This document shows, in pieces, positions 33,624-58,318 of a stretch of 64,000 nucleotides of DNA (position 1 is the stretch's first letter; each line of letters begins with the position of its first letter). The notes beneath the pieces are model-generated. The model saw only the letters and a program-made list of their open reading frames with translations. It was not told the DNA's origin and ran no database searches. This DNA is from Primula veris (taxonomy: Eukaryota; Streptophyta; Magnoliopsida; Ericales; Primulaceae): NCBI GenBank assembly GCA_963682055.1, contig OY821750.1, positions 28,900,402 to 28,964,401 of the forward strand, in the 5' to 3' direction. The translations under genes were made by a program, and so were the position numbers.

Positions 33624-33704
33624 GGCTCGGCCTTTATGACTTTGTGTAAATAAGAATGTGGTGTAAATTTATGCATGTGGGCTTTATAAATAAAAACTGC
33701 TGTT

Positions 33705-34464: not shown

Positions 34465-37145
34465 CTAGATATCCCCGTCGCCATCTCCCTCATCCTCTTC
34501 GTCGGAGAGAGCTCGAGGAGTGAGGGGAACCACCTCTGGGATAGGAGCCGAGGGGACCGGAACGACGATGTTGTCCATGCTCCATACCGGATGGTCCGGT
34601 CCCGCCCTCAGAAAGGCAGCCGCCTCGGTCCACCCTTCGACATAGAAGGAATTGAATTCCTTCTGTGTCTTTTCAACCCAGGCTGCGTTTAGTTCGGCTT
34701 GAGCAGCTTGAACCGCAGCCTTCAGCTTATCAGCCGCCTTTACTTCGGCTTCTTTCAGAGCCGCCTCCGCTGCTTGAGCTCGCTCCTCAGCCCCCATCTT
34801 GGCCTTCACATCTTCGACCCTTTTCGCCTCGACCGTGGCATTGAGGCCTTCGGCTTTCTCCGCCCTGCTCTCGGCCTCCTCCGCCCTTTTTTGGGCCTCC
34901 TCCGACCTTTTCTGGGCCTCCTCCATGAGCTTCGCGTTAGCCTCGGCCTTACCGGCCCATGATCTCACCAGCTGGCCTTGGTGATAAACATATTGATTCA
35001 TCATTAAGTAGGCCTACGAGGGAAAAGGCAAAACACTTAGCAAAATATTTGGAAGAAACAATACGAAAGCATACAGCATAAAACAAAAATAGAGGGTTAC
35101 GTACCTGGGGAATCATGGCCATGGCCGATGTCATGGAGGATGCGAGGTCACGACCCCGATGGTCAGCCTCGACGCTTTGCTGCTGGAGTGCAGCCAAAGC
35201 TAGTAGCCCGGCGGACGGGTGAGCCTCCATTATGCTCTTTACCCCCGTCGCTGCCTTCACCTCCTCGGGTGTTTGCACTGGCATCCTATGGGTCGGTGAG
35301 ATGGCAGAGGCGGCAGAGGAGCTCGCGCTTTGAGTTGGGCCCAACGTCACTCTCGACCTCTCCGTCACCACAACCTCAGGCGAGCTGCCCCCCCCCCCCC
35401 CCCAGCCTTGGCTTTCTTCCCATCACGGAGGGGCTTCGTCCCCTCCACCTTTCTTTTCCCAAGCCGGGCCTTGCGGGCCTCCCGGTCAAGCCTGGTCTGA
35501 GCAGCCAAGTCAGCAGCAATATCGGCGCCAGACTGAGGCATGACAACCACTTCATCGTCCCTTGCGTCGACGACCTCCTTTTCTGTGGTCTCGGGCTCTA
35601 TGACCACCTCCTCTCCGACTACCTTCTCTGTCTCGACGGCCTCAAGCTCTATGATACCCTCCTCAGCCACAACCACTTCCCTCTCTCCCTCTCCATTACC
35701 CCCATCCGCGGCAGCATCTTCTTCATCTGCTTCCTCCTCCTCGTCAGAACGAACCACCTGTACAGGCCAAAAAAAAAAAAAAAAAAAAAAAAGTTAGAAA
35801 AATCAACAAAATCTAGCTAAGTGTCAAATGATGTAAAGAACATGGAATGACTTAGACTTACTCTGGTCCGCGAGGTACCCAAGCTCGGCCCTGTAAGCTC
35901 TTCGCCCACGAGGCTATCTTCGAGGTGAGAGGGACTCCTCACAACGGGCTCTCTGGAGCTAAGAGGAACGATCTCCTTCAAAGGGTTCCCATGTTGGTCT
36001 ATATAGCACCGGGTGCCGTCCGGCCCCTCCCTATAATTGAGGATGGTCCCATCCGGACGTACCTCCCATTTTACCCCGGCAGAGGCAGGAGCAAAAGACG
36101 TCACAGTCATAACCTTCCTCGACCTGCTGCTGCTCGACTTTGCCTTGGGCTTCGCCGCCACCTTCTTCGCCACGGGCCCTGTCACGGCCTCGGTTTCAGC
36201 CGCTTTAGGAGGGAGGGTGGACTCCAACCCATTCTCTTTCTCCCATCTCTCTCGGGAGTACCCCACAGGACAGAAGGTCCTGTGGGGCCAAATGAATTCG
36301 TTCCCCTTGCAGGTTGTTGGGGAACCACAAGTTAGGAGACGCTCCGCATCGCGCGCCCCAGCGTCGGTCCCGTTGGGACCCCACCAGTTCAGAGCCACCT
36401 CCAAGGACTCAGTATTGGGCTCACCCAGGCCCCGAAGCTTAGAGGCCACTGTGGCCTTGTTCTCTTTGGTGCTTAGCACCCTCCCCGGCCTGGAAGGGAG
36501 TATCAGGTCGGTCCGGTGGAGCCAATGGCCTTCCACCACGATCACATCTTGGGTATAGCCCCGATTAGAATCGGAGTTACCCGTGATCAACTGATTGTAA
36601 GCACGGCACCTTAAGTAAGGCTGCCTGCTCTTGGATTGGGAGCTTGGCTCGGTCTGCAGGAATTCGTAGCAGGCCAAGAGCTCCCTAAGCCCTAATGGTT
36701 CTGGCAGGGCCGGGCCCAACAACACATTCAGGGCCTCCATCCCGGCGCAGATACGGTGCGCCTGGAGGGGCCACTGGCATGGAAGAGTCTGCATCCAAGC
36801 GCACAACTCTGCCAGCAGCTCCGGGATGGGGAGGTGGGTACCCCCATAGAGGAGAGTAGAGAGAGAGAGGGTTACCATGTCGTTGGGACGGGCCACTATG
36901 CCGTTCACTTCATCGACACTCTCACATCTCCGGAGTTTGAACTCCTCTCCGATCCCGCAGAGTTCTCAGAATTCGTTGAGGTCAGGCCCGTGTAGCCTCA
37001 CCATTATGCTGCTGTCGTTCCCCTCCACGGACAGGGTCGGATCGAGAACCATCGGACGGAACGGCAGAGCGTTCGCTGCTACGGCCAGGCGCCGTGGTTG
37101 CGGAGCGACCATCGGGCCCTTTCCGGCTCCATGAATTATAACCAT
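34465..37145 (-). pseudogene. spliced antisense accessory gene of element A (gypsy-type 'putative transposon' N-domain, coiled-coil C-part)
   Basis: Minus-strand reading gives exon 1 37145-35862 (428 codons), exon 2 35757-35105 and exon 3 35013-34465. The donors GTAAGT and GTACGT and their AG acceptors are all in phase 0. Exon 1 has TLLYGGTHLPIPELLAELC and a following segment resembling the plant 'putative gypsy type transposon' domain (PF04195). Exon 2 is acidic. Exon 3 is a long Ala/Glu/Lys coiled coil (EEAQKRAEEAESRAEKAE) ending in an acidic tail DGDGDI. Breaks: TGA at 36966-36968 in exon 1, and a one-base shift at a 16-base C run (35388-35403) in exon 2. Antisense frames between pol and LTR are known in Tat elements such as Grande; their function is unknown. 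Confidence 0.7.
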
Positions 37146-37248
37146 TGTGGTGGGAAATTTGTAAAAAAATTCGTTAAGTGAAGAGGAGATGGTTTGCTAT
37201 AGAAATCTAGAAAGAGAAGTAGAAAGTGAAAAATGAATTTCACTGAGG

Positions 37249-37260
37249 GTATTTATAGGC
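37249..37260 (-). promoter_or_regulatory. TATA box of the antisense gene in element A
   Basis: The minus strand reads CCTATAAATACCC here, about 105 bases before the antisense ATG at 37145. The core TATAAATACCC is the same as in the element's own LTR TATA box. Confidence 0.6.
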
Positions 37261-37648
37261 CCCTAATGGAAGGTGAAAAGACATTTACCAGAAGGTGAAA
37301 AGGCAGAACGGCTCATTACACAAACTCCCACAAATGACAGCCGCCACTCAACCCACGCCTTCCACGTGTACAGCAAGGAGAGGTCGTCTGCCAAGTGTCA
37401 CCCTTCAGCCGTTTTGGCATTAATGACATTGAAGAAACCGAAAAGACAGAGGCGGCGCCTCATAATTGCAAAACTGGCATGCTCCACGTGTAAGAGATCC
37501 ATGAATGGTTGAACACGTATCAAGAGACGAGTCACGCCGAGGTGCCTCTAGACAGCCAAATATGAAGACAGAATGACCGGAGCCCCCGTAAAGTGAGGAA
37601 GGTACTCACCGACATTGTCACTAACGACGACTCCGGACAGGGAGCTAT

Positions 37649-38340
37649 TGGCGAGGGAATGTCAATGTCCCCTCGTCCGGACCGATATCACCACGGAAAC
37701 GAACAAACCGGGGCCCTATATAGTGGATGTCTCACCACCCCGGCTCATTACCAAACGGGGTGAAGCTAGGCCGGCCCAAAGAAGCGTATCGAGTACGCTT
37801 CACCAATTAATGCTGCTGCTCCCCTGGGGGACCCTCCTGGCGTTTCATCGACGTGGCCCAATCACAGGTCACCTCCCTGTGGGCCCCGGAAGAGGACAGT
37901 ACCCTTGTCAGAGCCATGAATGACCTAACGCCGTTGGATCAACATCTTACAGTACAGTGATCCAATGGCTAATACACCTCTGATCACACTATAAATACCC
38001 CCTCTAATACCACTAAGAGGGGGACACAAATACTGAGAGGAGAGATAAAGCTTAAACAACCCGGACCCCCAGAACACTGCCTGTACCATCCGATACTACG
38101 ACCCGTAACCGGCCCGGTCCCTCACTCTTAATTATATTCCTACTTTCAGTTAACACCGATACTGACTTGATCGTTGGAGAGGGAAAACCTGGTACCAACC
38201 CCGGGCCCCTGTTTGTTTCTTGCGCAGGCACGAAGGCCACCTCGTCACCATAGCCGACGTAAATCACCCCGGATACCTCGGAAGATCGGAGCCGACGCGA
38301 ATTGAGTAAGCCGAGCTTGGGAAGAAAATCAGGCTCGCCA
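37649..38340 (+). repeat. 3' LTR of element A
   Basis: It has the same length and ends as the 5' LTR and is followed by the TTATG target duplication (38341-38345). The polypurine tract in front is weak (GGACAGGGAGC). Confidence 0.95.
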
Positions 38341-38345: not shown

Positions 38346-39430
38346 CACCGACATAATATTACAAGATTCCAAGGAATTTTAACTATCATTTTTCACAACT
38401 CAAATATCGTTTTAACTGTTCCTATAAGAGCTAGCATTGCAGGGGTCTCGAACCATACTTTTTCCTTAAATTTTGATAAACTTTACTAAAATGTGATTAA
38501 TTTTCTTTCTCTAACACCTTCATTATTTCTTATAAGCAGTAATATTATTAATATCGTGTATATTTTACATTACATGTAAACGCACCTTTATATATACTTT
38601 ATATGGTCAACATTTGGGTAAGCAACAAGTAAACAATATTTTATATATGGTGAGGGCCCGGGTTTAAAATATATTTTTTAATTATCTTATTTGGAAAAAT
38701 ACAGTGATTATTTACGAAATTTGATAATTTTAAAGTGAAAAACAGAAAATTTTAGAAAAAAACAGATAATATGATTTGAACGCCTAACATTTCACTATTT
38801 TAAAACCAATTTTACCACTACACCAACAATTTTTTTGTTTAATTAGGAGGCTATCAATATATATATTTAAAAAAAAATTAAATTACAAATAAAATAAAAT
38901 AAAAAAATGAAAATCACAGTCGGGTGACCATGGCCACCCCCAGTCAACCCCTGAATCCGCCCCAGCATATGATAATATTTCAATCAAATCAAATCAGAAT
39001 ATCTTATGCAATATATTTTTCTTCTAATAATTTATTTTCTCAAATTTTAAAAAACCCAAATTGTTTTCTTACATTTCTCTCATCTACTTTTTCAATTTTC
39101 TCTCGCATGTATATATATTAAATAACAAAATAAAAATAAAAAAGAATATAAAATGAAAAAAAAGAAAGGAAAAAAAAAGGTGAAAATTTATATAAATGTA
39201 AAATAGTCATGTAAAACGAAAAAAGTCATGTTTTTATTCAAAATAGTATAGGGAATTTATAAGGGAAGGCCAGTAGAGTGCTTGCTCTAATAAGACCTCG
39301 TAATCCAATTTCTCCTCCTAAAATGTTGATTTCGGGATTAACAATTCGCTTTGAATCATGAGCTGGTTTTTCCGTTTTTGAAGAAAGAGAAAATAAACAA
39401 TACAAATTAGATTGAACCAATTTAATATCA
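38346..39430. other. host sequence between elements A and B, with an exon-like open stretch
   Basis: Most of it is AT-rich without genes. On the minus strand 39435-39238 is open for 66 codons (…LVQSNLYCLFSLSSK… and GGEIGLRGLIRASTLLAFP). Across element B the same frame continues in the host sequence on the other side (51396-51375), where a TTAG acceptor-like site precedes it. It looks like a fragment of an exon split by element B. I do not recognise the protein. Confidence 0.35.
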
Positions 39431-39435
39431 GAATC

Positions 39436-39529
39436 TGATAGAACATAAAAATTAGACCCGAATATTCTATTCGGGTAATAATCAACCCACTTTATAAATG
39501 GGTATCCAACGCTTAAATGGGTCGTCTCA
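39436..39529 (+). repeat. 5' LTR stub of element B (94 bp)
   Basis: It is identical over 94 bases to 50800-50893, the first part of the 3' LTR, and is preceded by the GAATC target duplication. It ends at the deletion junction after GGGTCGTCTCA. Confidence 0.85.
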
Positions 39530-40624
39530 TAGATTGAGCTACAACTGCCGGTCTTGGAGGAAATCCACGAAAGATCCTGCGGAGCACACATCAAAGGGTG
39601 ATCCCTTGCAAACAAGGCAGTGACCCAAGGATATTGGTGGCCCTATATCAAGCGAGACGCCGATGCGTACGTCCAACGTTGCGACAAGTGCCAACGATTC
39701 GCCAAGATACCACGGCTCCCTTCATCTATGATGACCCCGGTGTCGGCACCATGGCCGTTCGCTCAATGGGCAATTGATTTGGTCGGTAAACTCCCAAGAG
39801 CACCTGGGAGTGTGGAATATCTGATCGTCGCGACGGATTATTTCACCAAATGGGTCGAAGCTAAACCCCTCCGAGAAATCAAAGCCAGCAACGTCAAACA
39901 ATTCATTTGGGAATACATCATAACTAGGTTCGGTATACCATACGCTATCGTCGCCGACAACGGAACCCAGTTCAAAGATGCCAATTTACAGCTGTGGTAC
40001 GAGGAACTCGGTATCCGAAAATTCTATTCGACGCCGACATACCCACAAGGAAATGGGCAAGCCGAAGTGTCAAACCGAACAATATTAGACGGCATCAAGA
40101 CCACCCTTGAACAAGCAAAGGGGAGGTGGCCCGAGCGGCTACTCAACGTTTTATGGTCGTGCCGAACTACACCCAAAACGGGCACCAAGGAAACCCCGTT
40201 TAGCTTAGCATACGGTGTTGAGGCCATCATACCGACAGAGATCGGGCTACCCACGCTCCGAACAACGTTGGTCGAGCAGGGAAACAATGAACAAAGAATG
40301 AGAGAAGAGCTCGACATGATAGACGAGAAACGAGAGATAGCGGCCCTTACCCTAGCTAAGTACCAACAAAGCGTGAAGCAAGCCTATGACAAGAGAGTAA
40401 AAGGGTCCAAAGAATTCATGGTAGGAGACCTGGTGCTGCGACGAGTGACGGTCTATACCCGCAACGAAATACATGGCAAACTAAGCCCTACCTGGGAAGG
40501 CCCATACGAAATCGTCAAGCAAACAAGTCCAGTCTCTTACAAAATCAAAAGCGTCCTGTTCGCCAACAGCCGAGGGGAAAAGAATTCTTGGAATGTGGCT
40601 AACCTAAAGAAGTACTACGTATAG
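39530..40624 (+). pseudogene. integrase of element B (Tat type)
   Basis: The frame begins at the deletion junction with LEEIHERSCGAHIKG, then a TGA at 39599-39601 where SLA is normally preceded by Arg. It stays open to 40624. Zinc-finger remnants (CDKCQRF), the SAPWPFAQWAIDLVGKLP, VADNGTQFKD and YPQGNGQAEVSNRTILDGI motifs (the three catalytic acidic residues) and the tail SWNVANLKKYYV are all present. Apart from the stop the core looks intact. It has diverged strongly from the integrase of element A. Confidence 0.88.
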
Positions 40625-40724
40625 GCAATCCTCCGAATACAAGTACAGGTGCTACCTTACCCTTCTTGCTTAATGGCATTATCTTTCGTCTCTTGAATGA
40701 ATAAAATATATTATCATGCTGTCT

Positions 40725-41492
40725 ACTAATACTATGAAATTCCCAACATGGCCGAAGTGCCTAGGAATACTATGAAATTCCGTAAATGGCGTGTTACCGA
40801 AGGAACGCCTAGGAATACTATGAAATTCCCAACATGGCCGAAGTGCCTAGGAATACTATGAAATTCCCAACATGGCCGAAGTGCCTAGGAATACTATGAA
40901 ATTCCGTAAATGGCGTGTTACCGAAGGAACGCCTAGGAATACTATGAAATTCCCAACATGGCCGAAGTGCCTAGGAATACTATGAAATTCCCAACATGGC
41001 CGAAGTGCCTAGGAATACTATGAAATTCCGTAAATGGCGTGTTACCGAAGGAACGCCTAGGAATACTATGAAATTCCCAACATGGCCTAAGTGCCTAGGA
41101 ATACTATGAAATTCCCAACATGGCCGAAGTGCCTAGGAATACTATGAAATTCCGTAAATGGCGTGTTACCGAAGGAACGCCTAGGAATACTATGAAATTC
41201 CCAACATGGCCGAAGTGCCTAGGAATACTATGAAATTCCGTAAATGGCGTGTTACCGAAGGAACGCCTAGGAATACTATGAAATTCCCAACATGGCCGAA
41301 GTGCCTAGGAATACTATGAAATTCCCAACATGGCCGAAGTGCCTAGGAATACTATGAAATTCCGTAAATGGCGTGTTACCGAAGGAACGCCTAGGAATAC
41401 TATGAAATTCCCAACATGGCCGAAGTGCCTAGGAATACTATGAAATTCCCTAAATGGCGTGTTTTCAAAGGAACGCCTAGGAATACTATGAA
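40725..41492 (+). repeat. composite 38/48-bp tandem array after integrase of element B
   Basis: Two unit types share GAATACTATGAAATTCC at the start and CCTAG at the end. Type a (38 bp) carries CAACATGGCCGAAGTG and type b (48 bp) carries GTAAATGGCGTGTTACCGAA. They alternate as a-b or a-a-b over about 18 units and end with a degenerate b unit near 41480. The position, directly after pol, matches the 79-bp array of element A, but the sequence is unrelated. Confidence 0.95.
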
Positions 41493-41703
41493 ATTCATAT
41501 GCAGGTACAATGCAAGGAATTATTCAGCTCCACATTACGGCGGCGATACAATACAAATTGGCTAAAACAATGAAGGAGAATCAATCTAAACAACGAAATA
41601 TCAACAAGAAGCATCTCCAAAACAGGAATAAAGAAATAACATAAATAGTCCTCGCCCGCATTACGGAGGCAACGAGAAGATCATCGACACTAAAGAGACT
41701 CAT

Positions 41704-42342
41704 TTAAGAAGAGCTACTGCTGGAGGAGCACGACGGTAATTGACCGAGCTCAATCTCTTCGTCATCCGTCGTTGTGTACCCATCAGACTCATCACCATCA
41801 GAACGCTCCTCAGAAATGAGGGCATCAAAATTGGTCGTATGAGCTCCAACACAAGTCAGCGTCTGAAGCCGCGCGTTGAACTCGGCTTCTTTCGCGAACT
41901 CGTGAGCATCCGAGGCCGCTTTACGGCGATCATCGTCAAAGGAGAGATTACGGCGAGCTTCGATCATAGCCGCGGAAGCATCGTATCTGGCACGGGACAA
42001 ACGGAAATACTTCACCAACACGTTGGCCTTGGTCACAAGCAACTTTAATTTGCCAAAGTACTTGTCCTTTGCATGCCAATATCGATCCAAACGATGCTCC
42101 TGAACCTCAACAGTATGCTCGGCACGACGAACGTATTCTCGAAAAGAGGCCGCCTGGGTTTTCAGCTTGGTCCGCAGTCGAGCACATTGGTCGGTCAATT
42201 TGACATTTTTGCCCATCAAAACAATGTAGGGCCACTTGTCAGGCACCTCACTAGCCGCACCAGATGAGACCTCGTCCCGGGCAGCACCAGTAGGTCATAA
42301 CCCTGGGTTAACTAGGCATGGAGAACCAGCCTGGTGTGACAT
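41704..42342 (-). pseudogene. antisense coiled-coil gene of element B, one internal stop
   Basis: Reading from an ATG at 42342 (MSHQAGSPCLVNPGL), a TGA at codon 16 interrupts the frame. It then runs without break to 41704 (about 212 codons). The middle is helical and basic with repeated Arg/Glu/Lys heptads (KLKTQAASFREYVRRAEHT). The end is strongly acidic and closes in a run of seven Ser. Upstream on the minus strand is a TATAGGCAC acceptor-like sequence, so it may instead be a downstream exon. No known catalytic motif is visible. Confidence 0.45.
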
Positions 42343-42467
42343 AGTAGCATGTGCCTATAAAAAAAAAGGGGGGAGAAGAATGAGAAGAGATGAATATACA
42401 AAAAAAAAAAAAAAAAAATAAATTTATACAAGCTACAAATAAAACGACAAAACAAGCTACTCTATCA

Positions 42468-43040
42468 TTAATCCGACAACCCCTCAACAGACGCCGAGGT
42501 CTCTACTACATCGGCAAAATGAATATCTCGCAATGAATTAATTTGCGTCCCCAAACGCTTACGAATGACCGCCTCGATTCGGTTCAAGGCAACAGTGGTT
42601 TCAGTTACCCCGGCCTTCGCATCAACCATGCGCTCTGCCCGGGACACACCACTCATTCCTTTTACATGCTCCATCACCTCTAAAGCGCGAGCTCGGGCCC
42701 AATACGCTTTGGCAAAGGATAGCAGCAGGTCCGCGTCCTCGAAAACGGCCCCAAGGACCAAGTTCAAGCTCGTCACACGACCTCGGGCTTCATCACGAGA
42801 ACGTCGTAGGGCACCGAGAAGTTCCTTCGCTTTACCCTTATTTGCCGTATAATGGGCGGTCTTTTTACTAAATTTCTCTCCCAAATCACGTAACCGAATC
42901 GCCAAGTTGGAAATATGAATATTCAGACCCTCGATTTCCTGACAAGCACAAGTCAATTTCGCGGTAAGGGACGCCTTAGATATTTCCAAATCTTCTATTA
43001 CGTCACCTACACTACGACTAGGCGAGGTCCAGACCACCAT
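42468..43040 (-). CDS. antisense helical protein of element B (190 aa), function unknown
   Basis: The frame runs from ATG 43040 to the stop at 42468. The sequence is Ala/Glu/Arg/Leu-rich and predicted by eye to be largely coiled coil (DVIEDLEISKASLTAKLTCA, ALRRSRDEARGRVTS). TTGTCAG directly upstream on the minus strand resembles a splice acceptor, so an upstream exon is possible. I do not recognise a family. It lies between the spliced antisense gene and the 41704-42342 gene, all in the same orientation. Confidence 0.45.
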   Translation of the reverse strand: MVVWTSPSRSVGDVIEDLEISKASLTAKLTCACQEIEGLNIHISNLAIRLRDLGEKFSKKTAHYTANKGKAKELLGALRRSRDEARGRVTSLNLVLGAVFEDADLLLSFAKAYWARARALEVMEHVKGMSGVSRAERMVDAKAGVTETTVALNRIEAVIRKRLGTQINSLRDIHFADVVETSASVEGLSD

Positions 43041-43267
43041 GGCAAGGGGTTATTTGGTACCTGACAATATTTTGTTTTCACATCCTTCAAAATATGACGA
43101 CCATCAAAAGAAATTAACCCAAGAAAGACCAACAGAAAGAAAACACAGCACCTATATTATCACTTTCCCAAAAGAATCTGTTTCTAGATACACAAGAGAC
43201 TAAACCACACAAAAAAAAACACAACAAAAACAACAAAAATATACTATACATACTGCTAGAAAGATAG

Positions 43268-45550
43268 TCAAGGTTCCACCTGAGGAGATACTGGTGGGGG
43301 AACAACAGTAGCATCCGGTCGAGGAGTGGACGGGGCCGACATAGAGTGATGACGCAGCGCTGTCGAAATTGTCTGTCCCGGCAGCCGAGGAAGCTCCTCT
43401 TGACGAAGATTCGCCCAGTCTAAGGGTTTCGGCGGTGCACCATGCGGACACGGATACACCAACTCCGACCACGCCCTATCCGACAAAGGAACATTCGCGA
43501 AATTGAGCGCCCACACATGAGCACAGTATACAGAGAAGTTGGCCATCATTGCTAACTTTGTCCGCTCCTCCGCGTGTGCCGTTTTCAGGGCAGTCACCTT
43601 AGCCCTTTCGGCTTCCACGTCCTCTGCCAGGAGCAAGTTCTCCTCCTCTAGTTCGCCGTACCTAACGACCATGCTCTCTTTTTCCGCCTTCAATTTATCG
43701 ACATCCTCGGTCAGGTGCAGAAAGTCCATCGACAGCTTGTCATAATTCTCGCCCAGGGTTTTATTCTCGGCGACCAATTTCTCTTTCTCGACCTCGAAAG
43801 CCGCAAGCAGATCCTTTATCTTCTGCTCGTTCTCCTCGACTATGGCGTTCTTCTCGGCCACCAGCTTCTTTTTCTCAGCCCCTAGAGCTCCCAGCTGATC
43901 CCGTAGCGCCACGGTACTCAAGGCAATCTGCACTTCAACACATTAGATTTCAAATAGAATACAAGTACCAGACCTATATAACGAAATACGAGCATCATGG
44001 TATATATTACGAAATAAGCGTCCCACATACCCTCAGCGCATCCGCGTGGGCCTGCTCTATAACTGACATTGTAGGTTGAGCAGCTAGTCTTTCTGCATCC
44101 TTGAACGCAAGGGGTTTCAGAGCCGTATACCCCATCTTCAAGGTTCGCGGTTGCTCCAGCAGCTCACCCCCACATCGGTCAATGTAACGGGTCATTGCAA
44201 CACCGTCAACCAACACCTTCTCGGATCCGTCGAGAGCCTCATCCTCGACACCCGTCACAACATCCCCGGCAATCTCTTCGCCGCCTTCCATATCCACTTC
44301 CTCGACCGCCTCCTTCTCTGGAGCATTAGTCTCAGGGGTCCTGCGCTCGATTACATCCTCTGTACGGATGGGCGAGATACCAGACAGGTCCAACACGGCC
44401 TCGGAAAGGACAGGCGAGACCGCAGGCAGGGTCATCGTCTCCTTCCCCATAGCCACCAGCATGTTGATATGTCCGAACAGGCTATCGATCGACCCCTGAA
44501 ACACAATAATACCCATCGACCGGGCAGGAGCGAGGGTAACCAATGGAGAAGTCAGTAGCTGAAACAAGATAACTAATAAAGCAAAGCACTAGCGAACAAA
44601 CCGATAACCAAAAGACAAGAAAATCATAATACATATACACATACCTCGCCCGACGCAGAGGCATCCTCGGCGGTATCCCCTTCGGCGGCAGCAACCGCCC
44701 CCTCGCTCGAGCCAACGATATCAGCCTCCTCGGTAACCGATGTATCGGTTCCCCTGGCCCTCTTCGTTACTCCACCAACAGGGTCAGACGCATGACGCTT
44801 AGACCGAACGAGCTTCTTCCCGAGCCGAGCAGCACTTCGTGCCCGGACCACTTTCAAGAACTCCTCCTCGGGCTCTTTGGGGATCTCGGGCACAGGATTC
44901 CCCTTAGTCACCGACCCCATAGGGTACCCGAGCAGCATCGGAGCAGTACGACTCGCCGGATCCAGCGTCGGTCCCGGCCCCCACCATTTCCAAAGAGCTA
45001 ACAGAGCCTCTACATTGGGAGCGCCGAGGTCGGGCATAGTGGGAGCGTTGGTGGCCGGTCCAGGAATCTGGTGTCCCGGACAGCCCCATTCACCAGAAGC
45101 TATCACGATACCAAGATTGCGCTCTTTGTTGGTATCCGGCAAACCGATAACAAGCCGGCAATAGGACCGCTGGGTTTTCAGATACGAGCTGCGACGCTCA
45201 AAGCTCAGACTGTAGACTCCAAAGACGTCCTTCAATTCAATCGGTATTCCGGCCAACTCCGATAACCTTTGAATACCGTTCAGAGTCCGGTAACCATTTA
45301 AGGCCAGTTGGGCTGGAGCAATCTGGACGGCCTCAAAGAACGACGCCACCCAGTTTGTAAAAGGAAGTCGAAGACCCCCAGTAAAAAATGCCGACGAGCG
45401 CACAACCACCTCGCCGGCAGGAACAAATCCCAGCACCTCCTCGTCAGAAATAGGAAGCCGAATATGTATGTTGTCAGGTATTCCGGCAAGCTCTTTAAAA
45501 TCCTTTTCCACGAATGTGCCAACTTGGGCCACACTTTGGGTCAGAATTTC
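43268..45550 (-). CDS. main spliced antisense gene of element B (PF04195-like N-domain, coiled-coil C-part)
   Basis: Minus-strand exons 45550-44645 (302 codons), 44558-44031 (176) and 43927-43268 (219 plus stop) join in phase 0 with GTATGT donors and AG acceptors, with no internal stop. The first part (SSAFFTGGLRLPFTNWVASF, then IAPAQLALNGYRTLNGI) fits the plant 'putative gypsy type transposon' domain PF04195. A basic segment (KRHASDP) follows, then an acidic middle. The last exon is a long coiled coil (EKKKLVAEKNAIVEENEQK). The true first exon lies upstream of 45550 and was not resolved. The domain order and three-exon layout match the antisense gene of element A. Its role in the retrotransposon is unknown. 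Confidence 0.65.
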
Positions 45551-46518
45551 CTATCCAAACATCATTCACAATTCCATCAATATACTAACCAAATACACAA
45601 ACAAGAACCACATCAATATAACGCACCCCCCCCCCCCCCCCCCCGCACTCACATTAACCAGATACATAAGAATCATCATACACATATAGACAACCTAAAC
45701 CATATACCAGTGACACATCTATGCCCACAACGGCAAAATTACCTACAACCCCTACCAACAGAGAAAGAACACTTACGGTTATCATTATGAACAAGCACGG
45801 AAGAACAGCAACAAGTCTTCCAACAAAACCATGAAACCCTAGATCAAGCGGCCGAACTCTTTTCCTTTTTGGCGGGAAGAATATGCTTTAGAGAGAGAGA
45901 GATATTTTCTTCAGCAAATTCTGTGATAAAAATAAAAAAGGATTACTTGGCACAGTAGAAAGGAGTGGAGTCACAAAAAGAATAAAATAATAACCATCCT
46001 TTCGTGTAACAGAGGTTTACCTTTTTTCCAACCATACAAAAGTCAACAACCGCTGCTATTTTTAACATATAAACGCTCCAGATTTCGCCACGTCAGCGCG
46101 TATCCCACTACCCAAGGCAGTTCACATCATTACACCTAAATAAACGGCCAGTGGACCCTACCACGAAAAGCTTCCCACATACGCTACCACTATTATCACA
46201 CCGAGAATGTCCCCGATTAAAGTTCCTCGACTCCCAACCAATTCTTACCCAAAGGGCACACCGAACAAGGTGGACGAAGACCGTTTCTAGCTTGACGGCA
46301 TGGAGCATCAAGTCTAACAACGCTCTCCGGGGGGATAACCGGGCATATTGTTCGGTGTATGCTGAGAGACATCAAATGATATCAACATAAAAGAGTGAAG
46401 CAAACAAGAAATAAAATAGGACAGAATCAAGTGCAAGACAAGTTTTATTCATCCACAAAGGGGGAAACACAAACAATACAACAGAAAAAGAAAAATGTTA
46501 CAAGAAAATACACCCATC
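45551..46518 (-). other. upstream region of the main antisense gene
   Basis: It holds a 19-base C run (45626-45644) in what would be an intron or leader, a GA repeat at about 45892-45903 and a possible leader with a minus-strand ATG near 45831. The candidate first exon from that ATG is short and unproved. Confidence 0.3.
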
Positions 46519-46881
46519 CTACTTTTTCGAACTATCCCCCATAGCAACATCCCTCTTCGCCAAAAGTTCCTCCAGACGCTCCTTCTCCCTAATCAAACGA
46601 GAAATCGCCATCTCAGCCTGTTTCAAGGCGTAAGACTGAGACTCACATTTTTGCTCGGCCTTGAAACGAGCAGTGCCCTCCTCGTCCCAATATTGTTTAA
46701 ACCTCCTCACTTCAGTCCGAGCACACATGAGATCATGTTTCAGCCATGACATCTAAATTTCTTTTAGTTGAAGAGGAGTCAAATCCTCCTCCCCAAAACC
46801 AGGGGGACGAGGTAGCAAAAAAGTAGGCTCCTCTTCCATAAGGGCTTTCTTTTTGGAGGCACACCTAGTGATGGGAGCCAT
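46519..46881 (-). pseudogene. small antisense coiled-coil gene 1 of element B, with an in-frame TAG
   Basis: ATG at 46881 (MAPITRCASKKKALMEEEP) opens a frame of 42 codons, then a TAG at 46753-46755, then 77 more codons in the same frame from MSWLKHDLMC to GDSSKK at 46519. The second part is a clear coiled coil (AEMAISRLIREKERLEELLA). A TATA-like CTCTATAAATGCTCCC lies at about 46962-46976 on the minus strand, 85-95 bases upstream. The single stop may be a mutation or a readthrough site. Confidence 0.5.
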
Positions 46882-46963
46882 CTCACGCAAAAGCAAGTTA
46901 GAAGAAGCAAATTATAAAACAAGAGAGAGGTAGAAATTGGTAATGAGATACAGGCAATAGGGA

Positions 46964-46976
46964 GCATTTATAGAGA
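46964..46976 (-). promoter_or_regulatory. TATA-like box of small antisense gene 1
   Basis: The minus strand reads TTCTCTATAAATGCTCC. Confidence 0.5.
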
Positions 46977-47115
46977 ATCAAAAGGCACAAAGTACGAAAC
47001 GTTACAATGGTTCACAAGACAGGCACGAGATACGAGAAGATACAACTGATTCATTAAATACAGAAAACAAAACACAAATTGAAAAAGGGGAAATACATAA
47101 GAAAACCAGCCCAAT

Positions 47116-47595
47116 CTAAGGATCAATGGGTGGAAAAATCGAACTGCCAGACCGAGAGAAGGCAGAACGAGTTGAACAACTCAACCGAGCTTGGTAGGAG
47201 TCATTCATGGCGACCAAATTGTCATTCTCCGAGGAGAGCTCGCTGTTCTCCGTGGTAAGAGCCCTGATGCGTTCCTCAAGCCGAGCATTCTTTACCATTA
47301 TGCTAGCAAGGCCTTGAGGAGAGTTATCAAAATCATCTTGAGCATGGTCCCAAATCTCCTCGGCATCATACCAGGAGTTGGCCATATGATTTCTCTGTGA
47401 CAACAAGTGATCGAGCTTACGACTTAGTGCCGAAATCTCGGTCCATTTCACCGTCTCTTCGGGATGAGAGCCGAACAAGCTCAAGGCCAAAACGCCATAC
47501 TCTTTCTCAAGCCTTGCCATCCGACTGCGGACCCGAGATACCTCAGAATCTAAGCCCTTCATCTGAGCATGATATCTCGCCACAGGTCCAGACAT
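47116..47595 (-). CDS. small antisense coiled-coil gene 2 of element B (159 aa)
   Basis: The frame is intact from MSGPVARYHAQMKG at 47595 to the stop at 47116. It has heptad-rich segments (VSRVRSRMARLEKEYGVLAL; LEERIRALTTENSELSSENDN) and a Ser/Pro tail. ACTATAAC and a clearer CTCTATAAGTACTTC (47695-47708) lie upstream on the minus strand. The MSGP start is shared with small gene 3. No known family. Confidence 0.5.
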   Translation of the reverse strand: MSGPVARYHAQMKGLDSEVSRVRSRMARLEKEYGVLALSLFGSHPEETVKWTEISALSRKLDHLLSQRNHMANSWYDAEEIWDHAQDDFDNSPQGLASIMVKNARLEERIRALTTENSELSSENDNLVAMNDSYQARLSCSTRSAFSRSGSSIFPPIDP

Positions 47596-47696
47596 TCTGG
47601 GAAATTGTTATAGTACGGAAGAAAATGAGGGGCTGAGGGAGAAATAAGCAATAGAAGAAAAATGAGAGATGATAAACTACTAAAGAAAAGAGAAGT

Positions 47697-47707
47697 ACTT
47701 ATAGAGC
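47697..47707 (-). promoter_or_regulatory. TATA-like box of small antisense gene 2
   Basis: The minus strand reads GCTCTATAAGTACTTC, about 100 bases before the ATG. Confidence 0.5.
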
Positions 47708-47960
47708 GAAGACAGCACGATCTTTCCTGACATGCTTGGGAGCATGCATATTCCTGACCTACTAGGGAGCATGCACCTATATTCGACAGTGATGGGGACA
47801 TCTACTGACATCTGATACTACAGTACAGAAGGAAATAAAGATGAGATATTCAAAGATCTAGCTTCCCGACAAACAACAAACCACAGGTGCAATATAAAAA
47901 GAAGTGCAAAAATAAAGGGGCAAAAATACTTTACATTAATAAAGATGGGATATATCAAAG

Positions 47961-48110
47961 TCTATTACATCCGAAAAGGAAATCTATTACATCCGAAAAG
48001 GAAATCTATTACATCCGAAAAGAAAATCTGTTACATCCGAAAAGAAAATCTGTTACATCCGAAAAGAAAATCTGTTGCATCCGAGATAAAGATCTATTAC
48101 ATCCGAGAAG
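47961..48110 (+). repeat. 22-bp tandem repeat (about seven units)
   Basis: Units read TCTATTACATCCGAAAAGGAAA with G/A and A/G variants, spaced 22 bases apart (47961, 47983, 48005 and so on). It lies between small antisense genes 2 and 3. The open frames across it on the plus strand follow from the repeat. Confidence 0.9.
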
Positions 48111-48169
48111 AGCTAGTACAGAAGATCAGGCAAAGGATCAACTATATCAACTGACCAAGTGAGCAGGAG

Positions 48170-48660
48170 ACGCCAAAAAGAAAAAGTAAGAAGAAAGAGA
48201 AAGGAAAAGCAAGAAGAGGAAAAGAAGAAGAGTGCAAGAAAAGAAGAAGTGATAAGAAAGAAGAGTCGAAAAGAAAAATGACAAAAACCCTAGATGTAAC
48301 ACAAAACCCTTAGGATCACATGGCTGATTGTTACATCATAGTGGTGCAAAAAAGAAGAAAAAGAAAAAGAGTGATGGGAGAGAAGATGAAGAAAAAGAAA
48401 GAGGAGGCACAGAAGAAAAACAGATAAGAAGAAAATAAAGAAATGAAGGAAACAGACAAATAAAAAGGAAGTCAATGAAACAAAAAATAAAGGGAAAAAG
48501 AAAAGAATGAAAAGTAGAGAGAACAGAGTATTAAAAAAAAAAAACACAAAAGAGGAAGAGGAAGAAATGAGGGAAACTGAGAAATAAAAAGAAGAAAAAG
48601 AAAGAGATGGGAAAATATGGGGAAAAGCAGAGAAAAAAAAAAAAAAAAAAGAAGGGGGAA
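48170..48660 (+). repeat. long purine-rich (GA) tract, about 490 bp
   Basis: The plus strand is almost wholly A and G (for example GAAGAGGAAAAGAAGAAGAG) with short interruptions. It lies in the 3' flank of small antisense gene 3 and holds no credible gene; the 139-codon minus frame over it is low complexity (Phe/Ser). Confidence 0.8.
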
Positions 48661-48662
48661 GG

Positions 48663-48956
48663 TTAGGGGGAAGTCGATCGGTATCGGTGAGAGGGCCCGG
48701 CAGAGACATCCCTGTCCCTCAGTGTCGGGTTCCCCCTTAGCATCTCATTCTCTTCGACTAGAGCCTGACGAGCACGTCGGCTATAAGCCAGTTCGGATCT
48801 TAGCCAAGTTAATTCCCGAACCATCTCGGTATGGTGATAACGCATCACCTTCAGTTCCTCCTCGGCATCCCTCAACAGCCTTTGTACATGGCTATAAGAG
48901 GCTTCAAAAGCCTCGACTTGCAAAGCTAATGTTGATGGGGTGAAAGGACCAGACAT
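48663..48956 (-). CDS. small antisense coiled-coil gene 3 of element B (97 aa)
   Basis: The start MSGPFTPSTLALQVEAFEAS at 48956 is preferred over an upstream in-frame ATG at 49028, because MSGP also starts small gene 2. The protein is mainly one coiled coil (LLRDAEEELKVMRYHHTEMV) with a basic Ser-rich tail. A TCTATAAATACCTGC box lies at 49041-49052 on the minus strand. Confidence 0.5.
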   Translation of the reverse strand: MSGPFTPSTLALQVEAFEASYSHVQRLLRDAEEELKVMRYHHTEMVRELTWLRSELAYSRRARQALVEENEMLRGNPTLRDRDVSAGPSHRYRSTSP

Positions 48957-49040
48957 CTTAGGGAAATTATAAGATGAGGGTCTATATATGGGGGAAAATA
49001 GTATGATGAGAATTGTGGACGTAACCATGCTGTAAGCAGG

Positions 49041-49052
49041 TATTTATAGATC
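49041..49052 (-). promoter_or_regulatory. TATA-like box of small antisense gene 3
   Basis: The minus strand reads CTATAAATACCTGC, close to the CTATAAATACC boxes of element A. Confidence 0.55.
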
Positions 49053-49594
49053 AATTAGATGAGGGCTGGTATTGAGAGTCGCAACCGTTCGCCAATGGGT
49101 ACTAAGAAGCGATGGCAATTAAAAGATGTGTCTGTTCAAGAAAGAACGTTTGGATTCCCCAAAGGTTCTAAAAAAAAGCGTGAGTAATTAAAAGCCACTT
49201 GTTCACAAAACGCTTGGATTCTTACCAATATTTAAAGAGGGCAAGTGATAATGGCACTGAAACACGCGTCATTTCTGGGGAAAGGCATTAGGTTCAAATA
49301 AATATCTAAGATCTTTTGCACAGAGATCAAGAAAACTCTGGTGAATAAGATCTTTATGCACAAAGCTCAAGAAATCCTATTGGTCCCCAGATATAAAGAG
49401 TAAGAAGGTTCAATGGATAAGATCAAACGCAAGGCCCAAGAAAAGCATTAATGAGGCCACAAGCGTGCGCAGTCAAAATAAATTGCATTGGGAAAGTAAT
49501 TCAGATATAAACAAGAGAAAGAAGTCTTTATTGATTAATTGATACTTCGTTACAGAAGAAGCAATAAAAGGAAATACAATAAAAAACGATAAAA

Positions 49595-49933
49595 TCATTT
49601 CGTGGAAGGGCCCGCTTCGTCATTTGGCTTCCTTTTCGACCGAGCATACACTTCCTTAAGGGCCAGTTTGTAAGCCCTCTTGGAAGCAAGTTGCCTATCT
49701 CTGGAGGCCTCGAGCTCTTTGATCCGAGCACGAGCGCGAATACTGTCGAACAAAAACCTCTGGTGCTCCTTCTCCAGGGCATCCAATCGCTCGTCTAGTT
49801 CGGCGGCCCGACGAGCTTCCACCGATAGCCGGGCAACCCTCTTCTCGAGATAACGCACCTTCTGAACTTCCTCTTCCAGACGAGCAACATATTCAGGAAG
49901 GTTGTCACCATAGTTTTCAAGAGGAGAAGCCAT
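49595..49933 (-). CDS. small antisense coiled-coil gene 4 of element B (112 aa)
   Basis: The start MASPLENYGDNLPEYVARLE at 49933 is chosen by comparison with small gene 5, which also begins MAS and shares the C-terminal block. The centre is coiled coil (LEKRVARLSVEARRAAELDE). The end reads KRAYKLALKEVYARSKRKPN, matching KRAYKLAFKELHARSKP of gene 5. TTATAAAAGGGG lies at 49981-49993 on the minus strand, about 50 bases upstream. Confidence 0.55.
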   Translation of the reverse strand: MASPLENYGDNLPEYVARLEEEVQKVRYLEKRVARLSVEARRAAELDERLDALEKEHQRFLFDSIRARARIKELEASRDRQLASKRAYKLALKEVYARSKRKPNDEAGPSTK

Positions 49934-49980
49934 TTGTTCGTTAATAAAGAATGAATTGCATAAAGAATACAGGGACAGTC

Positions 49981-49993
49981 CCCTTTTATAAGA
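49981..49993 (-). promoter_or_regulatory. TATA-like box of small antisense gene 4
   Basis: The minus strand reads TCTTATAAAAGGGGAC, a strong plant TATA match. Confidence 0.6.
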
Positions 49994-50235
49994 AGAAACA
50001 AGGAGTAGATCAAAGGTCATCTCAAAGAAATACAACCTCTTGAGCTTCCCAAGAGCATTTACGGCGAATTAACTACAGTTCCAAACCCAATTAAAGTCAT
50101 CCAAAAAGATATCAAGAAGATGAACAGACAAGAACAAGGATAGGGAAATATTTTGTTAATTTCAAAAATTCGATTACAACTGAGGAGAAGACTCCCCATT
50201 CAAAAGAAATTACAACAGAAATCGCAAAAGACTAA

Positions 50236-50556
50236 TTATTTCGAGGAAGAGCCTTCTTCATCGTCATCCGAACTCGGTTTAGACCGAGCATGCAACTCCT
50301 TGAAGGCAAGCTTATAGGCCCTTTTTGCTGCCTTCTGCTTAGCCAGATTAGCCTCGAGCTTCTTTATATGCTCGTAAGCCCAATCCCGATCGGCCATCGT
50401 CACATGATGATCAGAATCCATGTCAGACAACCTTTTCTTGTAGTCTGAAACCTTGGCCACAAGTTTCTTATTCGCGGTACGATATTTCTTGATCTCTATT
50501 TCTAAATAAGAAACATAATTAAAGGAGCTCTCACCAGTAGAACCAGAGGAAGCCAT
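50236..50556 (-). CDS. small antisense coiled-coil gene 5 of element B (106 aa)
   Basis: The intact frame runs from MASSGSTGESSFNYVSYLE at 50556 to the stop at 50236. It has a coiled-coil centre (IKKYRTANKKLVAKVSDYKK), the block shared with gene 4, and an acidic/Ser tail. TATAAAGGGG lies at 50609-50618 on the minus strand, about 55 bases upstream. It is the antisense gene nearest the 3' LTR. Confidence 0.55.
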   Translation of the reverse strand: MASSGSTGESSFNYVSYLEIEIKKYRTANKKLVAKVSDYKKRLSDMDSDHHVTMADRDWAYEHIKKLEANLAKQKAAKRAYKLAFKELHARSKPSSDDDEEGSSSK

Positions 50557-50608
50557 TATGTCACGAGCAAATTAGTAGTAAAATGCCTAATTATGGAGGG
50601 AGCACACC

Positions 50609-50618
50609 CCTTTATAGG
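50609..50618 (-). promoter_or_regulatory. TATA-like box of small antisense gene 5
   Basis: The minus strand reads CTCCTATAAAGGGGTG, very like the box of gene 4. Confidence 0.6.
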
Positions 50619-50799
50619 AGTTTTCCTCGAAGAAAGATATTAGGATAGGAAACATTAAATGTGCCCCCCAGGGAACCGTCATGAGTCTATTGCGTTTCTC
50701 GATGAAGCATTGGGAAAGACAAGACCGAAGTAACGTTCTCGACAAACCGAACATGACTCCCCCGACATGGAAACCACGCCGAGGAAGTCAGGGAGCACT

Positions 50800-51369
50800 T
50801 GATAGAACATAAAAATTAGACCCGAATATTCTATTCGGGTAATAATCAACCCACTTTATAAATGGGTATCCAACGCTTAAATGGGTCGTCTCAAACTTTT
50901 TATAGGAAATAAGGTGTTACTATCAAAAGCCCAAGCCCAATCAAATGGGGACCCAGGTCTGAAAAACCCCTGGGATGAAGACATTTGTCAACATCCTAGA
51001 AGGCATAGTTGCCTGTAAATAGCCAACTACCCCTCCTAGAAATGGACCAGAAAAACTATCCAAAAAATATAGAGAGAAATTGAGAAAAGAGAGAAACTAA
51101 TCAACGCACACCACTTCAAGAAATAAACCGAGAAAAGACAAAGCCGAGCACCGAATAAAAGGGGAGAAAGATCAAGACGAGAGATTAAATAGTCATATCG
51201 AGCACAATTGTAAAACCGAAATACTAATTCGAGCAAGTGTAATAGTCCGAATAAGGATAATAATCCGAGCAATAATAAAGATCAGGAAGTGTCCATTATT
51301 CACAGTTGATTTACTATTATATCATTGTTGAAAAGCCTAACGCGACCGACCAAAGTTATGGATTTATCA
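50800..51369 (+). repeat. 3' LTR of element B (570 bp)
   Basis: It starts TGATAGAACATAAAAATT after a purine-rich GAGGAAGTCAGGGAGC tract and ends GGATTTATCA, followed by the GAATC target duplication. A palindromic CCCGAATATTCTATTCGGG lies near its start and a TGTAAATAG box near 51016. Confidence 0.85.
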
Positions 51370-51398
51370 GAATCTTCATGATATTGTATAAACTAAGA

Positions 51399-52276
51399 CA
51401 GGGACAAAATCCTAAAATTCCAACCCGATCCATGTTTCGATCCGCATCCGATCCGAAATTTTCAACCCGAAAATAGTCATAGACCGACAAAGTTCGGGAT
51501 CGAGATCGGGTGACAATTTTGATTTCGTCGGATGTCCCAACCCGACCCGATTTTTTAATTAATTTATATTTTATATAAAAATATAAATTAATTTATATCA
51601 AATGTAAGTGATGAGAATCAATCTTTGTACATCTAGCCTACAATGTAAACACTCTACCATATGAGCTACAATGTTTTTTGTTTTATATATTAGTTATACT
51701 TATGTAAGTATAATATATATTTGTATTTTTTAATATATAAAACTATTAAAATAAAAAAATATACTTAAATTAAAAAATTATATTGTTATTTTCAAGAAAT
51801 ATAAATGATTATAATTTTCCGATTATAGAAATTATAATGATAGTGTATCTCATTTAGTATGATAATTGTTGCTTGTGTGAATAAAATTAAATATTAAAAG
51901 AATTTGATAAAAAAACGTATCAATTTTTTTATCTACTCCATTATTTGTAGTTTCACACTATTTTTTATACTACATGTTAATTTCTTTTTTTATTTATTAG
52001 AAATGTTATTTTTAAACTAGGATTATGTTTCGCATTAATAACATGTTTAGACTTCTCAAATAAAAAATTGTTAATAAAAAATAACGTCGTCGTAAAATAA
52101 AAAAAATATGTCGGGAGATTCGGGATAAACCTATCCTGACCATACACGATCTCGAAAATTCGAGTCCCGACTTTTGTCGGGTAGGGATCGGGATTTTTTT
52201 TTCACTTTCAAAAGTAATCGGATCGGAATATAGATCGAGTGTTTACGGATCGGGTTCCGATCCTAACCCACCCCTG
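51399..52276 (+). mobile_element. non-autonomous hAT-like element 1 (about 878 bp)
   Basis: The left end CAGGGACAAAATCC...AACCCGATCC matches the inverted right end, which reads inward CAGGGGTGGGTTAGGATCGG and AACCCGATCC. The sub-terminal regions are rich in CCCGA/TCGGG. CAGGGGTGG-type ends are common in plant hAT elements. I could not confirm an exact 8-bp target duplication. The interior is AT-rich without a transposase. Confidence 0.6.
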
Positions 52277-54204: not shown

Positions 54205-54543
54205 GTCTCAGTAGTTAGCTCACATTGTTAATATATTGAACCCAAATTAACAAGTGTTTCAAAAGTAATATCTTTTTATAACTTCATAAATTATTTCATA
54301 AAAAAATAACTAGACTTGGTACTTGGTAGAATATAACATTTTAATTAGTAACTTATAATTTAGGAATGCAACTAATTAATGGTAAATTGATATAAAAGAA
54401 ATTAAAGAAATAGCTCAAGTAGTAAAGCCCAAAACCACAAATATTATATTGAAGCCAAACGTATCTCTAAAACCGGAGCCCTTATTGTATCTTTCACATA
54501 TTCAGTGGTTAAACAAATAACCATACTAATTTACCAACTAAGT

Positions 54544-55359
54544 TTAGCAATAGAAATCGCATTGGCATATGTCGCCAAACTCGAACTTGGTGACAAGTCC
54601 TCTGCCATTCGTATAACCCGCGCATAAATTCTCACAGTCCTCGTCAACATTCGGGCCGTCTTTTATTAGTGCTCCAGTTTGAACCCTACACTTTTCGGAG
54701 ATAGTTCCACCACATTTGTAAGAGCAAAAACACAATGGAGGACTGGTGCCCATATTTGTAGTAATTCCCTGAGCTTCCTCTGCTGGATTAGAATGCAAAC
54801 CTTTACACTCGGCATCGCAATTATAACCAGGATCTGCAATTCCGATTAACGACATGCAACCTCGTAGCGGGCCTTTTTGTTGAAACCTTCCCATTACTGC
54901 ATTAAATCATGTGTCAGTTCGAGATTTTATCAGAATAGAAATATTAATAAATTCTGAGTATCCATGTTACATTTTATAGAATGAGTAATTATCAGTCATG
55001 GTAAATTTATTTTGCTATAGTTTCTGTTAATTTAAATTTACCATGTGCATGTTAGACTTTCTGGTTGAAAAGTTGGCATTAACCTTTAGAAATTGAAAAG
55101 GACTAATGCACTTTGTTACAACTGCAAAATTAGAATGGCATAAAATAAGCCTAAACATTTAGGTCCAAGTGTGCGAACCTACTTTTGTATGCCTTAAGAG
55201 TTACATACTTCAATTGTGTTTAAAAAACGTATACTATATTCAATTTGATCATATGTTAGAAAACATGAGAACAAATTAAAAGGAAAAAAAAAAAAAACAT
55301 ATACCTGAACTAGCAAGAAGAATTATAACAAGAACGGACAATACCAAAGACTTGGACAT
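54544..55359 (-). CDS. secreted two-domain defensin-like (CSαβ) protein, copy 1
   Basis: Minus-strand exons 55359-55305 and 54896-54544 join (GT-AG) to 135 aa. Exon 1 is a hydrophobic signal peptide (MSKSLVLSVLV…LLASS), split from the mature part by an intron as is usual for plant defensin-like genes. The mature part has two units, each with C-x3-C and then C-x-C-x3-C (CDAECKG…LCFCSYKC; CENLCAG…CQCDFYC). This is the cysteine-stabilised alpha-beta pattern repeated in tandem, twelve cysteines in all. Such proteins are secreted and act in defence or reproductive signalling; which applies here cannot be told from sequence. A minus-strand TATAAATTA box lies at 55421-55432. It is a tandem duplicate of 58625-59386. 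Confidence 0.82.
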
Positions 55360-55420
55360 CTTTATTTTTATTTTAATTTAGTGAATGTAGTACTCTATAC
55401 TCTGAAGATAGGTCAGGGGT

Positions 55421-55432
55421 TAATTTATAGTC
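55421..55432 (-). promoter_or_regulatory. TATA box of defensin-like gene copy 1
   Basis: The minus strand reads GACTATAAATTAACCCC, about 65 bases before the ATG. Copy 2 has a changed base at this box. Confidence 0.65.
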
Positions 55433-56765: not shown

Positions 56766-56989
56766 CAAATAGTTAGAACAGGGGTTTGTTGGCTTAGACC
56801 GTATGTGTTAGTACTTTAGAGGATATTTGCTTCGTCCCGATTAACAAGTCAGGGAAGGAGGACAACTTAAGTGTGACATTATACAAGGGATGGAGTATAT
56901 TCAGTTAATTCTGGTTACCATCTAGTGATTTCCGATGACTACATAAACTCCAAGATTAGCATATCGTTCTCGATTGGTCAGGATGCCTG

Positions 56990-58280: not shown

Positions 58281-58282
<2 letters not shown>
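57861..58282. other. end of unit 1 and start of unit 2
   Basis: No gene is seen. Unit 2 sequence is recognisable from about 58140 (TAGTCGAATTGGAACC). GCACTA-like microhomology around 58197-58202 matters for the later duplication. Confidence 0.4.

Positions 58283-58318
<36 letters not shown>

Follow-up and report, generated by a model that had tools for sequence, protein, structure and literature searches.

In a 64,000-nucleotide stretch of the Primula veris genome (assembly GCA_963682055.1, contig OY821750.1, positions 28,900,402 to 28,964,401; hereafter the window), the block at 39.4-51.4 kb is one long terminal repeat (LTR) retrotransposon, element B, adjoining a further element, A. Between pol and the 3' LTR of element B, we find five small genes, S1 to S5, on the minus strand, standing beside one spliced antisense gene, and a preliminary description of this DNA had correctly placed its antisense frames on that strand and in that interval. 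The five genes keep their order, evolve under codon-level selection and are preceded by conserved TATA boxes, and the splice sites of the neighbouring gene are conserved as well. On balance, we favour a reading in which the antisense accessory region would comprise one spliced gene and at least five independently promoted, separately selected genes for small helical proteins, which arose partly by duplication and were reshuffled between subfamilies.

Selection, candidate promoters and predicted products of the small antisense genes

All five genes are read on the minus strand: S1 at 46519-46881 (120 codons), S2 at 47116-47595 (159 codons), S3 at 48663-48956 (97 codons), S4 at 49595-49933 (112 codons) and S5 at 50236-50556 (106 codons). 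The comparison set consists of the window and 23 other copies in this 436.5-Mb genome, namely 20 long copies and three copies of a second clade (L047-L049). Against the diverged copy L026, the ratio of nonsynonymous to synonymous substitution rates (dN/dS) is 0.17, 0.20, 0.28, 0.22 and 0.27 for S1 to S5, with 95% bootstrap intervals of 0.08-0.32, 0.10-0.38, 0.13-0.62, 0.12-0.37 and 0.14-0.51, respectively. For each small frame, none of 400 neutral simulations was as low as the observed value. The same letters read in two shifted frames give ratios of 0.65-2.0 in this comparison; one complementary frame echoes the signal (0.22-0.39), which is expected from overlapping codons. A frame-blind six-frame scan with 40-codon windows picked out the small genes as well as the antisense exons; besides these, it showed echoes in the complementary frame and isolated weak signals in a few windows. 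Comparisons of the window, or of the closest intact copy, with diverged copies mostly lie between 0.1 and 0.3, and the indels in S4 and S5 of L026 are multiples of three. Chance open reading frames (ORFs) were rejected on the in-frame ratios, the frame-blind scan and the neutral simulations.

We counted a gene as intact when it had an ATG and an ORF length within 10%, over 24 copies (the window, the 20 long copies and the three of the second clade). By this measure S1 is intact in 20 of 24 copies, S2 in 24/24, S3 in 18/24, S4 in 20/21 and S5 in 19/22, and all five are intact together in 12 of the 24. The copies had been picked through S2. L010 and L016 lack both S4 and S5, and L017 was dropped for S4 since the search there matched S5. 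Genome-wide, S2 has 1684 candidates and S5 has 2638; among the best 150 scored of each, 12 and 1 carry a stop, respectively, and these tallies lean to intact copies, the scored candidates being the best ones. Neither free interruption of the frames nor a dN/dS near 1, named in the preliminary description as comparative signs against its interpretation, occurred in the other copies.

The S1 frame, which had been listed as one of the five small genes, is not open in the window: it contains one in-frame stop about one third of the way in (approximately 46753-46755), and this stop is absent from all 20 long copies. The window copy thus has two private lesions, this nonsense codon at 46753-46755 and a 1-nt frameshift ahead of exon 5 of the spliced gene, and intact copies lie elsewhere in the genome. 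Upstream of S4, moreover, its reading frame remains uninterrupted through the TATA box as far as about 50068 (49934-50068) in 17/17 covered copies, with few changes and a synonymous bias. This open stretch is possibly due to chance, or may reflect a longer start form.

The TATA-like boxes reported ahead of the small frames are all present, 57-108 bp before the ATGs and on the same strand: at 46967-46972 for S1 (91 bp), 47698-47703 for S2 (108 bp), 49043-49048 for S3 (92 bp), 49985-49990 for S4 (57 bp) and 50611-50616 for S5 (60 bp, and 184 bp from the 3' LTR). The motif TATAA[AG] occurs at 10 sites on the gene strand of 41519-51400, and within 45600-50799 just two sites exist beyond the five boxes, both inside the S5 frame. 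When five anchors were placed at random, five boxes were reached in 0 of 20000 draws and four boxes in 11; in dinucleotide shuffles, 0/500 had boxes at more than two of the five genes. Chance TATA boxes were rejected on these two controls. Across the copies, the motif lies 40-130 bp upstream of S1 in 23/24, S2 in 24/24, S3 in 23/24, S4 in 21/21 and S5 in 21/22. The distance between box and ATG is near-fixed for S3 (91-92 bp), S4 (55-58 bp) and S5 (58-61 bp), and ranges over 86-109 bp for S2 and 73-106 bp for S1. Four boxes match L026 at 9-10 of 10 bases, within an upstream 220 bp that is otherwise 65-88% identical. Kept starts, stops and boxes, together with codon-level selection, lend strong support to the view that these are separate antisense genes.

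In 10 of the 20 long copies, the block 41618-51369 aligns without a break; the remaining 10 align in ordered or partial pieces. Starting from P0003, a protein 78% identical to S2, we scored 150 places in this genome that are 86-94% identical to it, 23 of them with a stop; these places may overlap the S2-derived list. All three fetched copies of this second clade keep the order and strand of S1-S5, at protein identities of 63-91%, with S4 broken in L047 and S1 broken in L048. Median dN/dS between near and far copies is 0.14, 0.16, 0.28, 0.26 and 0.29 for S1 to S5, from 51, 80, 56, 51 and 60 pairs of intact frames, which are not independent of each other. Selection has maintained the small proteins across copies that differ by up to about a third in protein sequence, and the family includes recently inserted copies. 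L048 is mosaic in make-up: its S2 most resembles those of L047 and L049 (92% and 91%), its S5 is nearest to the window (95%, versus 76-77% to L047 and L049), and its S3 to S5 are closer to the window clade than to the second clade. This mixture of a second-clade S2 with S3-S5 of closer kinship to the window clade suggests that recombination has reshuffled the small genes between subfamilies.

At the protein level, most of the frames had been called coiled coils rich in Glu, Lys, Arg and Ala. The composition holds for S4 (fraction of the four residues 0.50), S1 (0.42), S5 (0.39) and S3 (0.34); it does not hold for S2, whose 0.28 is like the 0.29 of the integrase. Structure predictions by AlphaFold, each from 2-3 sequences, cover S2 and S4. 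The S4 model is one helix of about 95 residues (residues 4-99), whose core has a predicted local distance difference test score (pLDDT) of about 98; the S2 model has three helices, with moderate confidence (mean pLDDT 71.5). Homology between S4 and S5 extends along their length (HHalign probability 98.9), and on this alignment they are read as an old tandem duplication. For the other 44 pairs among ten coding segments, the HHalign probability is below 2, and a common origin of all five small genes is unsupported.

Protein searches, which were limited to relatives with shared short words and similar length and in which S1, S3 and S5 were entered as 58-60-residue pieces within one chimeric query, gave six matches. 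All are versions of the small frames: P0006 for S1, P0002 and P0003 for S2, P0005 for S3, P0001 for S4 and P0004 for S5. They may come from the same plant or a close one. S2 found no match among PDB sequences up to E 0.1 and none by Foldseek below E 0.36. Viral contigs queried with S2 and the TRP28-like exon of the spliced gene, and prokaryote genome contigs queried with the integrase, gave no relatives.

Proposed mechanism and competing explanations

The explanation that we prefer, with a probability of about 0.7, is that each small gene would form its own RNA polymerase II unit, consisting of a TATA box, a 5' leader a few tens of bases long, a single ORF and a short spacer, and that five such monocistronic genes would accompany the spliced one. 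Their products would be small, largely alpha-helical proteins, two of which, S4 and S5, would derive from the old tandem duplication. We infer that these helical proteins pair with each other or with the TRP28-like protein, the nucleus being the likeliest site, and that they would regulate or protect the element, acting on its transcription, nuclear RNA or silencing state, and would not catalyse a step. The nuclear regulatory role is suggested by analogy with TRP28 and Grande GENE23, in the portion of a review that treats them (PMC7264820), and with the retroviral antisense genes named in the Retand survey (PMC11963269).

Several observations weigh against this explanation. The role is drawn from analogy since the small proteins have no confident domain match, and a fold match, sought for S2, gave none with confidence. 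The box of S5 is altered in L026, and poly(A) signals, inspected by eye, follow no consistent pattern: an AATAAA after S1 is kept in L026 and one after S4 is not. L026 is itself partly decayed, with an 11-nt insertion near the end of S1 and frameshifts or stops in its TRP28-like exons. Constraint is weaker among the nearest copies, where pooled dN/dS for S1 to S5 is 0.30, 0.34, 0.58, 0.27 and 0.20, as expected if dead copies add neutral changes; the pair L028 and L022 is not significant for S1 (40 of 400 simulations as low) or S3 (179/400). Single near-far pairs reach 0.76 for S4 and 0.80 for S5, and the window against L048 gives 0.63 for S5, on few changes.

Other explanations were considered for the same region. 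Instead of acting as regulators, the small proteins might serve the virus-like particle as scaffold-like helices with a structural or assembly role, as the long predicted helices and the recent amplification of the family would allow. The frames, however, are antisense and outside pol and so cannot be translated from the sense genomic RNA, and the neighbouring Tat-type element A has no such array between its pol and 3' LTR; we regard this role as unlikely, if worth keeping in mind. The five frames might also be real coding segments carried on a single long antisense RNA, either spliced or polycistronic, whose promoter would lie close to the 3' LTR. They do share one strand and a fixed order, and the neighbouring TRP28-like gene is spliced, but each frame keeps its own ATG, stop and TATA box, which makes a single transcript improbable in our view.

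Antisense RNA as such, acting through double-stranded RNA or small interfering RNA control with incidental frames, is among the roles discussed for these regions in the part of PMC7264820 that concerns them. It is hard to reconcile with in-frame ratios of 0.17-0.28 against 0.65-2.0 in two shifted frames, and we give it very little credence; judged at the codon level, the products very probably act as proteins and not merely as antisense RNA. Equally slight is the prospect that the array is a private nested insertion or a set of recently captured host genes. At 10.2 kb, the interval between pol and the 3' LTR exceeds the upper limit of about 6.6 kb in the published Retand survey, as an insertion would predict. 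The block nevertheless recurs, whole or in pieces, in all 20 further copies, the five genes recur in the second clade, and the six protein matches, within the reach of those searches, are all versions of the small frames. A nested insertion was rejected on the recurrence of the block and of the five genes. Against these alternatives, separate small antisense genes remain the reading that we carry forward. Taken as a whole, the preliminary description was partly confirmed in what it observed and partly supported in its interpretation: separate genes stand, with S1 broken in the window and at least one of the further genes probably an exon.

Element B, its spliced gene and the surrounding window

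The limits of element B are set by its repeats. The first 94 bp of a 5' LTR (39436-39529, plus strand) are 100% identical to 50800-50893; both begin with TGATAG, and 50800 opens a 570-bp LTR on the plus strand (50800-51369, TGATA...TATCA) that ends in TTATCA at 51369. The pentamer GAATC lies outside both, at 39431-39435 and 51370-51374, as a target-site duplication. From the 94-bp identity, the shared TGATAG start and the flanking GAATC, we identify the 5' side as an LTR stump and 50800-51369 as the 3' LTR. The 3' boundary at 51369 is confirmed by other copies, since the alignments of 19/20 stop within 5 bases of it; that of L018 stops at 51385. In 39436-39602, the end of pol comes almost immediately after the stump; relative to full copies of about 17 kb, this amounts to a deletion of roughly 5 kb inside the element. 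The integrase part of pol (39602-40624, plus strand) matches PF17921, PF00665 and PF24626. After it come 38/48-bp tandem repeats of repeat family D1, between pol and the antisense genes (40720-41500, limits approximate), and the whole interval from pol to the 3' LTR is 40625-50799, or 10,175 bp.

The pol of element B is truncated, and domain order was read from one full copy, in which reverse transcriptase (RT) is followed by RNase H (RH; PF17919/PF17917) in L029 and then a second RNase H (aRH, PF13456) stands ahead of PF17921/PF00665 in L046. A second RNase H between RH and integrase (INT) is the order given for Ogre and Retand in the relevant part of a plant-wide survey (Neumann 2019, PMC6317226). 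By these domains, element B is classed as a Tat-type Ty3/gypsy retrotransposon, truncated on the pol side. Its family likely belongs to Retand. The Retand survey gives 2.9-6.6 kb between pol and the 3' LTR in recently active elements, which B exceeds; this is a survey range and not a strict criterion.

Of 2327 LTR candidates in the genome, the best 40 were scored, and these include at least 12 pairs on one strand that are no more than 18 kb apart. Eight pairs span 16.9-17.5 kb and the other four 10.3-15.5 kb. The LTRs of the eight full copies differ at 3-12 of 562-568 positions (0.5-2.1%), and the 5-bp flanks are identical in 7/8, the eighth being off by one base. The low divergence and these flanks suggest that the family was recently mobile.

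Besides the small genes, the preliminary description listed one spliced gene and two further genes. The spliced gene stands. On the minus strand, we place a candidate exon 1 of three codons with an ATG and a GTAAGT donor (45777-45785, aligned by eye, donor GT in 19/19 covered copies), exon 2 (44645-45550, TRP28-like, dN/dS 0.16), exon 3 (44031-44558), exon 4 (43268-43927, Glu/Lys-rich, with an alternative donor at 43279) and a probable exon 5, frame F (42468-43060, dN/dS 0.21, acceptor AG in 18/18 covered copies). Exon 4 is defined by alignments, dN/dS and splice sites; exon 3 has kept splice sites and is weakly constrained (dN/dS 0.52, with 14 of 400 neutral simulations as low). Exon 1 and four phase-0 joins are consistent with the alignments, as read by eye. 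Listed in order, starting with the donor of exon 1 and ending with the acceptor of exon 5, the splice dinucleotides are kept in 19/19, 18/18, 18/18, 18/18, 16/16, 15/16, 18/18 and 18/18 of the covered copies among the 20. The match of exon 2 to PF04195 is weak: at 18.8 bits (E 0.0019), it falls short of the curated cut-off of 26.2. Over 224 residues, exon 2 is 29% identical to the antisense protein of element A, which itself has no Pfam match.

One of the two further genes probably belongs to the spliced gene. In the frame 42468-43040, the ATG assigned as its start is absent in 11/18 covered copies, and the window has a private 1-nt frameshift at about 43046-43050, just after the exon 5 acceptor, where 18/18 covered copies differ. 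Because of the missing ATG and this frameshift just before the frame, 42468-43040 is most likely a 3' exon (exon 5) rather than a separate gene. The other, G (41704-42216, minus strand), is a constrained coding frame (dN/dS 0.22 against L026) that may be a separate gene or the last exon. Its ATG is kept in 19/19 covered sequences, the window included, and its coding signal may reach upstream towards 42338. Upstream of the spliced gene, the stretch 45881-46518 has a divergence K of 0.145 against L026, among the least diverged non-coding stretches (others 0.131-0.296), and is a candidate regulatory region.

Element A spans 27277-38340, with LTRs at 27277-27968 and 37649-38340 that are 99.3% identical. 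It is of Tat type; 79-bp tandem repeats occupy about 33706-34205, and within 34465-36965 lies an antisense gene that is homologous to the TRP28-like exon of B. No small-gene array was seen ahead of its 3' LTR, and element A offers a natural control for the array. In the rest of the window, the flank 39238-39435 is single copy in the assembly, and 19593-20097 is a large palindrome of 505 bp with a 91% match to its own reverse complement. The AT-rich flank at 54231-64000 holds large direct duplications at 82-97% identity (for example 54231-55533 with 58320-59562, and 56602-57821 with 61865-63095) and smaller inverted repeats.

Comparison with known antisense genes

Antisense ORFs in Tat elements, an antisense promoter of the gene23 type and tandem repeats are already known. 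Searches of the open-licence part of PubMed Central turned up no array like S1-S5. If our reading is true, element B would have some eight genes spread over both strands, and its accessory gene set would match that of complex retroviruses in richness. S1-S5 make the role of the antisense ORFs of plant Tat elements testable: the proteins are small, the candidate promoters are clear, and the neighbouring element A, which lacks the array, provides a natural comparison. They are also candidates for plant retrotransposon regulators or anti-silencing factors.

The antisense ORFs of Retand elements with Transposase_28, in the section of the survey that describes them (Vicient 2025, PMC11963269), resemble B in having antisense frames between pol and the 3' LTR, a TRP28-type gene and tandem repeats after pol. 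The elements surveyed there reach about 6.6 kb between pol and the 3' LTR and internal regions of up to 12.9 kb; B differs in its 10.2 kb, its internal region of about 16 kb and five extra genes of 97-159 codons. Likewise, the eORF-3'R class of Neumann 2019 (PMC6317226) comprises additional ORFs in reverse orientation on the 3' side of Tat elements. Extra ORFs were recorded there at 250 codons or more, which leaves out genes the size of S1-S5, and the Retand survey counted ORFs of at least 600 bp, shorter ones only if TRP28. These cut-offs of 250 codons and 600 bp exclude the small genes from both surveys. If our reading holds, the array went unseen since surveys discard short ORFs, and length cut-offs in transposon annotation would hide accessory genes.

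In human T-cell leukemia virus type 1 (HTLV-1), HBZ is a single gene. It is named in PMC11963269 as an antisense retroviral gene; its product is nuclear, and the likeness to the genes of B is one of working. A further parallel is gene23 of Grande, an antisense accessory gene with its own upstream promoter and a product reported as nuclear (reviewed in PMC7264820). Element B likewise has antisense accessory genes, with boxes that are candidate promoters by sequence. For Grande, the passage of that review on gene23 describes one gene, whereas element B carries an array of five further small genes, each headed by a TATA box.

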